The position numbers were made by a program, and so were the translations under genes. Of a stretch of DNA of 64,000 nucleotides, positions 48,302-62,844 are shown one piece after another. Location: NCBI GenBank assembly GCA_026418695.1, contig JAOAAU010000122.1, positions 1 through 64,000 of the forward strand, in the 5' to 3' direction. The notes under the pieces were generated by a model, which saw only the letters and a list, made by a program, of their open reading frames with translations, was not told where the DNA came from and did no database searches. Position 1 is the stretch's first letter; every line of letters begins with the position of its first letter. The DNA is from Clostridia bacterium. Its GTDB lineage: Bacteria > Bacillota > Clostridia > Acetivibrionales > JAFADI01.

Positions 48302-48581
48302 GACGGTCCCCCCGAATGATAGAACTGATTTCAGTCAGTTTATTTAAGATAGTGTTCCAACTGGATTCGTACAATGGCATTTTGATATAGATCCCAATGT
48401 GTTTAAGAGGTTGACATCTTTGATCACTGTTTCGTTTGATTTCCATAATGGGATAATAATCCTATTCTATCATAAAGTCAGCATTGGTTGTCGTAGTTGT
48501 TGGAAAAAATAAAATGCATTACTGGTATTTAAAAAGATTGACATTTTTTATTAACGCTGGTAAAATTCACTTAATATCTAA

Positions 48582-48826
48582 AAGTGATGATTGGAAACAG
48601 TAAAAATCTAGATCATTTTCAGAGAGCCGGTGGTTGGTGTGAATCGGTAGTTTTTTAGGTTTTGAACTCGTCCAGGAACTGCAGCCCGAAAATGTAGGGT
48701 ATGCCGGATTTCCACCGTTAAAGGGATAGATGGTGATGGCCATCGAAAAGAGTGGATTCAGACTGAATCAACTAGAGTGGTACCGCGAGTTAACCTCGTC
48801 TCTATAGCAGAGACGGGGTTTTTTTG
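48582..48826 (+). promoter_or_regulatory. T-box leader, predicted Leu specifier CUC (48667-48669), with intrinsic terminator (about 48791-48826)
   Basis: AGAGAGCCGGTGGTTGGTG stem I signature, GAACTCGTCC specifier region, AGAGTGGTACCGCG T-box motif, AACCTCGTCTC...GAGACGGGGTTTTTTT terminator; leuA downstream. Confidence 0.93.
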
Positions 48827-52534: not shown

Positions 52535-52700
52535 ACTCTGTCCTTTTGCCTGAGAGATTATTCTCTTAAAAGAGAAATGCCCCTTCGGCGCCAATCAATG
52601 GTCTCTCCAGAGGTTCATCCGGTTGATGTCCGTTTACCTGAGAGTTTAGCTCCTTCGGTGAACTGTGCTTATTGCACAGTCGCTCTCCATCAACCATCAT
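52535..52700 (-). promoter_or_regulatory. Tandem glycine riboswitch (two aptamers)
   Basis: Minus strand GGAGAGCGACTG...CACCGAAGGAGCTAAACTCTCAGGTAAACGGACA...CTCTGGAGAGACC...GCGCCGAAGGGGCA...CTCTCAGGCAAAAGGACAGAG: two copies of the aptamer core. Confidence 0.95.
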
Positions 52701-59251: not shown

Positions 59252-59571
59252 TGACCGACTTGATCGAACGTTAAACGAATTGAAAAAATGAGAAAGCACA
59301 CACCCAGGCCGAAAGGTCTTTTTTTTTGCTGTTAAAACCAAACTCCAAGGATCTTTCCACGATCTATCGGTGTAAAGCTTTTCTGAAACAGTTTGAGGCT
59401 GTCTTATGTAATCTAAAAAAACCAAGGGAACAATCTGCCCTGAGCCTTAGAAAAAAGTGGATTCGACAGATGTTGAATAAAGTTGTTATAATTGTTATGA
59501 ATAAAAACTAGAGCATAAACCCGGTTCAATTTGGAAAGAATCCTTTGCCGGGTTTTATCATTAAACTGAAT

Positions 59572-59742
59572 AAATGGATAGAGGTGGATCTGACAGCAGT
59601 AAATATGAGGAGGGTTAAGGGTACCCTGTGACGCATGTTGAAAGGGGACGATCCCGAAAGCCGTTTTTCCCTTAAGAACAGGCTTGGTTACGTGGTGAAT
59701 AATCATGGGACTGTCACTGAAGCAGTGAAGCGCTATCGATTT
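59572..59742 (+). promoter_or_regulatory. Lysine riboswitch (L-box)
   Basis: GGATAGAGGTG ... AGTA ... TTGAAAGGGGACGATCCCGAAAGCC ... GGCTTGGTTACGTGGTGAATAATCATGGGACTGTCACTG ... GCGCTATC; P1 GATAG/CTATC closes the motif; candidate terminator downstream. Confidence 0.88.
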
Positions 59743-59773
59743 GGTTGAATATTGTTGAATATTTACGAATGCG

Positions 59774-59809
59774 GGCGTTTGGGGTTTACCCAACCGCCTT
59801 TAAATTTTT
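59774..59809 (+). terminator. Candidate riboswitch expression-platform terminator
   Basis: GGCGTTTGGG GTTTA CCCAACCGCC TTTAAATTTTT; a GGTTG at 59743-59747 just 3' of P1 could pair with CAACC 59791-59795 as antiterminator. Confidence 0.65.
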
Positions 59810-59826
59810 ATCGAGGAGATGTTTGG

Positions 59827-61101
59827 ATGTCGAGAGTTGTAATCATTGGTGGAGGATGGTCGGGATGTGCGGCTGCCATCAGTGCACGCAAGGCGGGAGC
59901 AGAAGTAATATTGATTGAAAGGACGGATATGCTGCTGGGAACCGGTATGGTAGGGGGGATCATGCGGAACAACGGAAGGTTTACTGCAGCAGAGGAAATG
60001 GCTGCAATGGGCGGGGGCGAGCTGTTTGAAATATGCGACAGAAACTCAAGGCATAAGAATATTGAGTTCCCGGGACATAAACACGCAGCCCTTTATGATA
60101 TCGGTACAATCCACGGAGCGGTCTCGGATTATTTAAAAGCAATCGGAGTGCAGTTCCATTACAAGAACAGGATCAGCAAGATTGAAGTTTCCAATGGAAA
60201 TATCTCTTGTGTTCAGGAGCAGGAAGGACGGATTTTTGAAGGAGATGTCTTTATAGATGCTACAGGTACAGCGGGGCCAACTGCTAATTGTATTAAGTAT
60301 GGAAACGGCTGTGCCATGTGCATTCTCCGGTGTCCAAGCTTTGGCGGAAGGGTCAGCATCACAGGGCTCGCGGGGATTGTTGAGTACGTAGGGAAAAAAC
60401 AAGATGGCAGTTATGGCGCCATGAGTGGTTCCTGCAAGCTGTATAAGGAATCGCTGGCAAAGGAAATCAGGGATGAACTGGATTTAAAAGGGGTGGTCGT
60501 AATTCCTATTCCAAGGAATCTGGTGGAAGATCATCTTAGCGTGAAAGCATGTCAGCAATATGCACTGAAAGAATTCAAAGATAATATCATTCTTCTGGAT
60601 ACCGGGCATGCCAAGTTGATGACTCCTTTTTACAACCTTGAAATGCTCCGAAGGATTCCGGGGTTTGAAAATGCTAGGTATGAAGATCCCTATGCCGGAG
60701 GAATCGGAAATTCCATGAGGTATTTTGCCATGGCACCAAGAGAGAACAGCATGAAGGTGGAAGGGGTTCAGAACCTGTTTTGCTGCGGAGAAAAGGCAGG
60801 CCTTCTTGTAGGGCATACCGAAGCTATTGTAACAGGAACTCTAGCGGGTCACAACAGTGCGAGGTTGGTTTCCAAAAAGCCTTTACTGGAATTACCGAGA
60901 GGATTGGCAACGGGAGATGCTGTTGCGTATGTACGCGAAGAAATGAAAACAGAAAAGGGTCTCACCAAGAAATATACATTTTCCGGTTCCGTTTATTTCG
61001 AACGCATGCTTAAGTTAGGACTTTACTCAACGGATACCGGTGAGATCGCCAAACGAGTGGAGCAAAACGGGGTTAAAGGCGTATTCTCCAAATTGAATTG
61101 A
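59827..61101 (+). CDS. FAD-dependent oxidoreductase (PF12831-like)
   Basis: VVIIGGGWSGCAAAISARKAGAEVILIER dinucleotide fold; GDVFIDATGTAGPTANC; VQNLFCCGEKAGLLVGHTEAIVTGTLAGHNSARL. ATG 59827 with GAGGAGA RBS; track start 59752 lies inside the leader hairpin. Confidence 0.9.
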   Translation: MSRVVIIGGGWSGCAAAISARKAGAEVILIERTDMLLGTGMVGGIMRNNGRFTAAEEMAAMGGGELFEICDRNSRHKNIEFPGHKHAALYDIGTIHGAVSDYLKAIGVQFHYKNRISKIEVSNGNISCVQEQEGRIFEGDVFIDATGTAGPTANCIKYGNGCAMCILRCPSFGGRVSITGLAGIVEYVGKKQDGSYGAMSGSCKLYKESLAKEIRDELDLKGVVVIPIPRNLVEDHLSVKACQQYALKEFKDNIILLDTGHAKLMTPFYNLEMLRRIPGFENARYEDPYAGGIGNSMRYFAMAPRENSMKVEGVQNLFCCGEKAGLLVGHTEAIVTGTLAGHNSARLVSKKPLLELPRGLATGDAVAYVREEMKTEKGLTKKYTFSGSVYFERMLKLGLYSTDTGEIAKRVEQNGVKGVFSKLN

Positions 61102-61145
61102 ACTTTGGGCAAGGTATAGATAGACAAAAAATAGGGGGATGAGGA

Positions 61146-62519
61146 ATGGTTCAGTTAGGATTGCTTCACTATATCTACATTGCAATGGTAATTACAATAC
61201 TAGTGATTATGGCTTTGAAAAAAGATATTGTACTTCCTTGCATTGCAGGCTTGTTTATTATGGGGGTTGCATCCTCGGGGAGTGTTTTAAAAGGGGTTCA
61301 GGTAATATATAATTCTTTAATCGCAGCAGGTACTGAGTTCTGGGGAATTATCGTAATTATTTCACTGGTTGTTGCGATGTCGAAGGCATTAAAAGATATC
61401 GGTGCAGATGAGTTGGTAATGATGCCGATCAAATATATGATGGTCAACCAAAGTATTGCCTTTTGGGGTTTGGGAATTGTCATGACTGCAATTTCATGGG
61501 CTATTTGGCCGTCTCCGGCGGTAGCCCTGGTGGGAGCGATCATGCTTCCGGCCGCTATCAAAGCAGGTCTTCCTGCGATATGGGCAGCAGTCGCCATGAA
61601 CCTGTTTGGGCATGGCATAGCGCTTTCCAGTGACTTTTTTATCCAGGGAGCTCCGGCCATTACTGCCAAGGCTGCGGGTGTTGATAGTTCCCTGAATATC
61701 ATGGCAGCAAGCTTTCCTTTATGGTTGACGATGAGCATCGTAACCACCGTTACGGCATTCATCATGATGAAAAGAGATATGAAGAAAGTAGAGATAACAT
61801 TTGTTCCTGAAAGTAAAGAACAAAACAGCCTGAACACGAAACGTTCACTCGGGACGTATATTGTTGCCATTGCTACCCCTGTTGTTTTTATCGTAGATAT
61901 GGTTCTGATGTATAAATACGAGCTGAAAGGGGGAGACGCTACAGCCCTTGTTGGCGGCACAGCGGTTCTGCTTATGTCTGTGGTAGCTATTATTCAGCAT
62001 AGGTTCATGGGGTCACTCGATAAAGTCACGGAGTATGTGAAGGAGGGCTTTCTATTTGGGATTAAGGTATTTGCACCTGTTGTTGTTATCGGAGCGTTTT
62101 TCTTTCTTGGTGGAGAGACTACAGCGAAACAGATTCTGGGGCCCAATGCCAGCGGGTTCCTAATGGATATCGGTGCTTTCCTTTCGAACAATGTATCCCT
62201 TTCGAAAATTCCGGTAGTATTGGTGCAAGCTTTGATTGGAGCAATTACCGGACTTGATGGATCAGGCTTCTCGGGTTTGCCGCTGGTAGGATCCCTGGCA
62301 CAGACTTTTTCAACGGCTACCGGAATTGGAACTGCAAATTTGGCTGCTTTGGGACAAATTACTGCTGTATGGGTTGGCGGGGGAACCATTATTCCATGGG
62401 CTGTGATTCCTGTTGCGGCAATTTGTAATGTAAATCCGGGAGAGCTTGCCAGAAAAAATTTGATTCCAGTACTGGTTGGTTTTGCTGCAACGGTTATCAT
62501 AGCAATAATAACAATATAA
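61146..62519 (+). CDS. Polytopic membrane transporter, possibly ion-transporter superfamily (gluconate/citrate permease-like appearance)
   Basis: About 11-12 hydrophobic segments; ISWAIWPSPAVALVGAIMLPAAIKAGLPAIWAAVAMNLFGHGIALSSDFFIQGAP; 44 nt downstream of the FAD enzyme gene, same operon. Confidence 0.8.
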   Translation: MVQLGLLHYIYIAMVITILVIMALKKDIVLPCIAGLFIMGVASSGSVLKGVQVIYNSLIAAGTEFWGIIVIISLVVAMSKALKDIGADELVMMPIKYMMVNQSIAFWGLGIVMTAISWAIWPSPAVALVGAIMLPAAIKAGLPAIWAAVAMNLFGHGIALSSDFFIQGAPAITAKAAGVDSSLNIMAASFPLWLTMSIVTTVTAFIMMKRDMKKVEITFVPESKEQNSLNTKRSLGTYIVAIATPVVFIVDMVLMYKYELKGGDATALVGGTAVLLMSVVAIIQHRFMGSLDKVTEYVKEGFLFGIKVFAPVVVIGAFFFLGGETTAKQILGPNASGFLMDIGAFLSNNVSLSKIPVVLVQALIGAITGLDGSGFSGLPLVGSLAQTFSTATGIGTANLAALGQITAVWVGGGTIIPWAVIPVAAICNVNPGELARKNLIPVLVGFAATVIIAIITI

Positions 62520-62550
62520 GTATTCAATGAAAATATTTAATGAAAAATAG

Positions 62551-62594
62551 AGGCACTGGAGTATTTTATGTTATGAATACTCTCAGTGCCTTTT
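62551..62594 (+). terminator. Intrinsic terminator after the transporter
   Basis: AGGCACTG GAGTATT ... AATACTC T CAGTGCCTTTT. Confidence 0.9.
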
Positions 62595-62844
62595 ATTCCG
62601 TATAGACAACGAATCTCTACTGATCAGTTCTATTGAATTATCATTATTTGAATCAATTGAGACAATTTAACGTTGACTTCATGATCAAGCACAACTATAA
62701 TATAGATTTTGTGTGAGAAAAACTTCGTCGAAGTATAGTATAAAATACACTGAACTGGTCATGAATAAAAATTGAGTGGAAATTTGTGGCCATGCACATT
62801 ATAATAGAATCGTTGGTGAACATAAAGCGAGGGGGTAGTTACCA

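Follow-up and report, generated by a model that had tools for sequence, protein, structure and literature searches.

The transporters LysW and LysXY were reportedly nominated in earlier work from conserved, regulator-based hints. Lysine transporters are classic targets of the lysine riboswitch, or L-box (Rfam RF00168), and the genes listed behind this element in a published survey are lysC, the dap genes, lysA and the transporter genes lysP/gabP, lysW, yvsH and lysXY, with no mention of an FAD-dependent oxidoreductase (PMC5584792). In C. difficile a lysine riboswitch controls CD3100-3099, which encodes a YfcC transporter and an M20D amidohydrolase (PMC11477304).

Here we describe a locus in a stretch of 64,000 nucleotides from a Clostridia bacterium (contig JAOAAU010000122.1; the whole stretch is referred to as the window) in which a lysine riboswitch precedes the genes for an FAD-dependent flavoprotein and a polytopic transporter. 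The aptamer resembles other L-boxes in being full-length, in having all the core motifs and in having a terminator-type expression platform, but the gene pair that follows it is not among the surveyed targets (PMC5584792), and a literature search of papers other than the 2003 L-box survey found no pairing of a lysine riboswitch with an FAD-dependent oxidoreductase. The novelty lies in the gene content, and the RNA itself is ordinary. Like CD3100-3099, the locus combines a lysine riboswitch with one transporter and one enzyme of unassigned substrate; the enzyme is a hydrolase in C. difficile and a flavoprotein in the window, and the likeness drawn here is one of gene layout. The LysW/NhaC-type transporters share both the regulator and the ion-transporter superfamily fold with the window transporter, which differs from them in having no Pfam Na+/H+ antiporter match and in being partnered by an FAD gene.

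The lysine riboswitch and its expression platform

The whole window was searched against Rfam with cmscan, and RF00168 was matched over its full model (1-182) with a score of 94.2 bits and an E-value of 1.2e-23. As the gathering score of the family is 30 bits, this match is far from chance. All of the core motifs that the first-pass annotation had named as evidence for an L-box are present (AGAGGTG, TTGAAAGG..CCGAAA, GGGACTGTCAC and the closing GCTATC), and the covariance model confirms the leader as a lysine riboswitch, for which L-lysine is the predicted ligand. The placement of the riboswitch upstream of the FAD and transporter genes, also proposed in that annotation, is well supported: the order is aptamer, terminator, Shine-Dalgarno sequence (GAGGAG at 59813, upstream of the FAD gene), FAD gene, transporter gene and closing terminator. 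The features of the locus are collected in Table 1.

Table 1. Features of the riboswitch-controlled locus, with positions in the window
Feature	Position	Strand	Description
Promoter-like site	59463..59492	+	TCGACA-18-TG-TATAAT; 11/12 consensus matches, extended -10; consensus match only
Lysine riboswitch aptamer (L-box, RF00168)	59571..59743	+	cmscan, full-length model match
Candidate antiterminator	59725..59786	+	J5/1 and P1 3' strand (GAAGCGCTA) with terminator 5' arm (GGGCGTTTG); duplex -9.1 kcal/mol
Intrinsic terminator of the expression platform	59773..59809	+	stem 59773-59799, tract TTAAATTTTT; hairpin -15.9 kcal/mol
FAD-dependent oxidoreductase, GidA/MnmG-like fold	59827..61101	+	424 aa; ATG at 59827, stop ends at 61101
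Polytopic transporter, unnamed family, ion-transporter superfamily fold	61146..62519	+	457 aa; AlphaFold/Foldseek
Intrinsic terminator closing the two-gene operon	62549..62596	+	long hairpin followed by CTTTTATT; -25.5 kcal/mol for 62535-62605

Transcription would be expected to start at about 59499 from the strongest promoter-like site, which is a consensus match only, and a weaker promoter-like site lies nearer to the aptamer at 59532-59561. A terminator-like hairpin at 59517-59556 (CCCGG...CCGGGTTTTATC; -15.6 kcal/mol for 59500-59565), downstream of the strongest promoter-like site and upstream of the aptamer, may be the end of an upstream transcript.

The terminator that had been proposed downstream of the aptamer is present in the interval that separates it from the FAD start codon, and an intrinsic terminator occupies this position in all 14 of the leaders examined (the window and 13 others). 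The competing antiterminator proposed with it is weaker than that annotation suggested. In the window the duplex between the P1 3' strand and the terminator arm is equalled in energy by 21% of shuffled arms and so does not clearly exceed chance, but the pairing is clearer in six relatives (L004, L007, L152, L040, L050 and L151, which represent only two lineages), where the P1 3' strand and the bases that follow it form 8-10 contiguous pairs with the terminator 5' arm and the pairing beats that of 93-99% of shuffled arms. A terminator outside of P1 with a competitor inside of P1 points to an OFF arrangement.

The FAD-dependent flavoprotein

The FAD protein matches the Pfam families PF01134 (115.8 bits, gathering score 22.1) and PF12831 (65.1 bits), and the best Foldseek match to its AlphaFold model (pLDDT 87) is GidA (3cp8, TM 0.69). 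By PF01134 and the GidA-like fold it is a member of the GidA-like flavoprotein superfamily. The protein has this fold and PF01134 in common with MnmG (GidA) and TrmFO, but both of these assignments were rejected as it falls far below the NCBIfam equivalog cut-offs (34.7 bits against 524.85 for MnmG, TIGR00136; 32 bits against 428.65 for TrmFO, TIGR00137). It differs from both in having its own invariant CxMCxxRC motif and is shorter than MnmG.

The family is strongly conserved, with 76 of the 424 positions invariant across 51 homologues. Four of the invariant residues are cysteines (155, 162, 165 and 169) that could be ligands of an iron-sulfur cluster; the AlphaFold model is least certain around them, at residues 149-152 and 161-172. 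The FAD gene is also found with neither the riboswitch nor the transporter, so the reaction of the enzyme need not be specific to lysine. In several families (L052-L073 and similar loci) a transporter-less FAD gene lies downstream of a gene for a PRK05802-type FAD/NAD reductase, which is likely an electron-transfer partner of the FAD enzyme, and these gene pairs are often near dacF, ytfJ and scpAB. The presence of dacF and ytfJ as neighbors in some families raised the question of a dipicolinate-type sporulation enzyme, a role that was set aside on argument, since an enzyme of this kind induced at low lysine would deplete the lysine branch.

The transporter

No Pfam, NCBIfam or PDB sequence match was found for the transporter, whether it was queried alone or as a 57-member profile. 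Its AlphaFold model is all-helical and confident (pLDDT 87), and the best Foldseek match is a model of MleN, an NhaC-type antiporter (9a59, TM 0.63, probability 1.00), followed by INDY, Pho90, TRAP and ArsB. The modeled fold is that of the ion-transporter superfamily and is common to many other families. As the superfamily also has many anion transporters (INDY, TRAP, Pho90), a cationic substrate does not follow from the fold. The Pfam Na+/H+ antiporter families gave no match for the window transporter, nor do they occur among the matches shown for the 57 homologues. The gluconate/citrate-permease label (GntP, CitMHS) of the first-pass annotation is not retained as the window protein matches no Pfam family, and it holds only in the sense of a shared superfamily fold; the Pfam matches among the 57 homologues are all weak (CitMHS in 1, DcuC in 3 and DctM in 13).

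A second transporter of the same family, 47% identical, is encoded in the genome of the window (L109, G000:C84:43486-44880). It is solitary and has no lysine riboswitch, similar solitary copies are found in many Clostridia, and no informative conserved neighbors were seen for this second clade.

Conservation of the riboswitch with the gene pair

The transporter's own clade comprises the window and 13 relatives from at least seven families. An intact aptamer is present in 12 of these 14 loci; in one further locus (L148) the aptamer is decayed (47.2 bits) and seems to be without P5 and the 3' parts of P1, and in the last (L042) the contig breaks off with 154 bases left in front of the FAD gene. 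A separate contig of the L042 genome carries at its end an RF00168 match that is followed by no gene, and the gap therefore resembles an assembly break. The sequence after the terminator in L213 (end of G163:C20) and that before the FAD gene in L042 (end of G163:C26) look like the two termini of a group II intron, and on our own reading such an intron would explain the break; Rfam gave no intron match above threshold for these short end pieces.

A transporter scan of sequenced genomes recovered the order riboswitch, FAD gene, transporter gene in Petroclostridium X23, Clostridium pascui, Clostridium BSD9I1 and a Clostridia MAG, and additional searches of genomes brought in relatives from other families, with RF00168 in all of the last six loci added. 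Orthologous operons without an L-box, which the first-pass annotation had named as grounds for abandoning its reading, are thus not what the transporter's own clade presents, as its members carry RF00168. On the transporter tree the riboswitch-bearing loci form one group with L042 as the sole exception, and the riboswitch label requires 2 changes compared to 11.2 with shuffled labels; on the FAD tree it requires 4. No lysine riboswitch was found near transporters outside of this clade, nor in this sample with FAD homologues that have no transporter (L041, L044, L045, L048 and L049), and motif inspection of eight upstream regions from homologues with no Rfam match revealed no hidden or degenerate L-boxes. 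The riboswitch thus accompanies the gene pair, and above all the transporter.

The genome of the window has one further lysine riboswitch (130.9 bits), upstream of asd, and the other lysine riboswitch in the genomes of the clade normally has asd, dapA or lysA as its first downstream gene, as is expected of a regulon of biosynthesis plus uptake. One genome (G430) carries a third lysine riboswitch. Another (G432) yielded no such transporter and has one lysine riboswitch upstream of an ABC-type transporter.

A B12-linked cluster in other classes

The FAD and transporter genes also occur without a riboswitch in other classes of the phylum, where they are part of a conserved cluster (L173-L175, L181 and L183-L186, and in part at others in the range L173-L187) that encodes a PLP enzyme, a RidA-like protein, DUF6917, an FCD-type regulator, a B12-binding protein and a KamB-like reactivase in addition to the FAD enzyme and the transporter. 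The reactivase matches the NCBIfam model for the lysine 5,6-aminomutase reactivase with 253.7 and 229.4 bits in two loci (cut-off 210), and with 209.2 and 207.1 bits, just under this cut-off, in two others. The B12 domain is nearest to that of the D-lysine 5,6-aminomutase beta subunit, and the rest of the protein, which is the catalytic part, has no sequence match to anything known, aminomutases included. The resemblance to the lysine 5,6-aminomutase system (KamDE and KamB) is that homologues of both window genes adjoin genes for a B12-binding protein and a reactivase like KamB; the difference is that two cluster genes, encoding the B12 protein and PLP enzyme, were looked for and neither is present in the genome of the window or in the other riboswitch genomes tested.

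Judged from gene content, the cluster is an independent link of the gene pair to the metabolism of basic amino acids, and a lysine-sensing RNA in one lineage with a lysine-aminomutase-like cluster in another points to a single class of substrate. The cluster could instead be devoted to ornithine or some other amino acid, and is possibly a new B12-dependent amino-acid pathway. Two families lacking an assigned function are in this way tied to a B12-dependent cluster that likewise awaits one.

Proposed function and alternatives

From the observed aptamer, terminators, two-gene order and conservation of the riboswitch with the FAD and transporter genes, we infer a transcriptional OFF switch that acts on an importer of lysine or a close relative of lysine, with a flavoenzyme that acts on the imported compound; we regard this reading as probable, with room for doubt. 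At high intracellular lysine the bound aptamer would keep P1 closed, its 3' strand would be unavailable to the 5' arm of the terminator, the terminator would form and both downstream genes would be silent. At low lysine the FAD and transporter genes would be expressed. The transporter would be a secondary importer, and the flavoenzyme would work on the compound brought in or in the metabolism immediately around it, for instance by oxidizing a lysine derivative to lysine. The company of an enzyme hints that a lysine derivative is salvaged, and we draw a parallel here to the C. difficile pair. The idea of an uncharacterized lysine importer had been put forward in the first-pass annotation; it is strengthened by the conservation of the riboswitch and by the KamB-like cluster, and the transporter is a good candidate for a previously unrecognized importer of lysine or a lysine relative. 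Here an ordinary riboswitch suggests a probable class of substrate for a transporter family without a name and a flavoenzyme without an assignment, and yields a short, testable list of substrates for the pair.

The best structural match of the transporter, MleN, would also fit an antiporter of ions or metabolites (e.g. Na+/H+) that serves pH or ion balance under lysine scarcity rather than the import of lysine, and this alternative has already been published for the NhaC-like genes behind L-boxes, including LysW (PMC11477304). The pairing with the FAD gene in the riboswitch clade and the aminomutase-like cluster elsewhere favor a metabolite over an ion, and we consider an antiporter of this kind rather unlikely. 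A different division of roles would make the FAD enzyme the part that is linked to lysine, for instance in converting a derivative to lysine, with the transporter supplying merely a cofactor or a counter-ion. The very strong conservation of the FAD family would agree with this, but the transporter-less FAD homologues in the sample have no riboswitch and the riboswitch label fits the transporter tree better than it fits that of the FAD proteins, so that we give this arrangement little credence.

The direction of the switch could also be reversed, with lysine inducing the transporter and the flavoenzyme as a catabolic pair for its degradation. The homologues in other classes do lie in a degradative-looking set (KamB-like reactivase, B12 protein, RidA-like protein and FCD-type regulator), but the riboswitch-bearing genomes tested lack two proteins of the cluster (B12 protein and PLP enzyme), and each aptamer is followed by a terminator, the 5' arm of which pairs in the clearer leaders with the P1 3' strand, as in an OFF arrangement; an ON switch therefore seems quite improbable. 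A broader proposal can be made in which the pair is a lysine-salvage module not described before, composed of a new family of importers for lysine-related compounds and a flavoenzyme (possibly with an iron-sulfur cluster on the four invariant cysteines) that makes lysine from an imported derivative, placed under L-box control in one lineage and, in others, in a new B12-dependent pathway for amino acids that has a KamB-like reactivase. This proposal is tentative, and we lean somewhat against it in its full form.

Other RNA elements in the window

The Rfam scan also matched a T-box leader (RF00230) at 48578-48806 on the forward strand with 146.8 bits, and a tandem glycine riboswitch at 52536-52700 on the reverse strand that is made up of two RF00504 aptamers with 58 and 53.3 bits.
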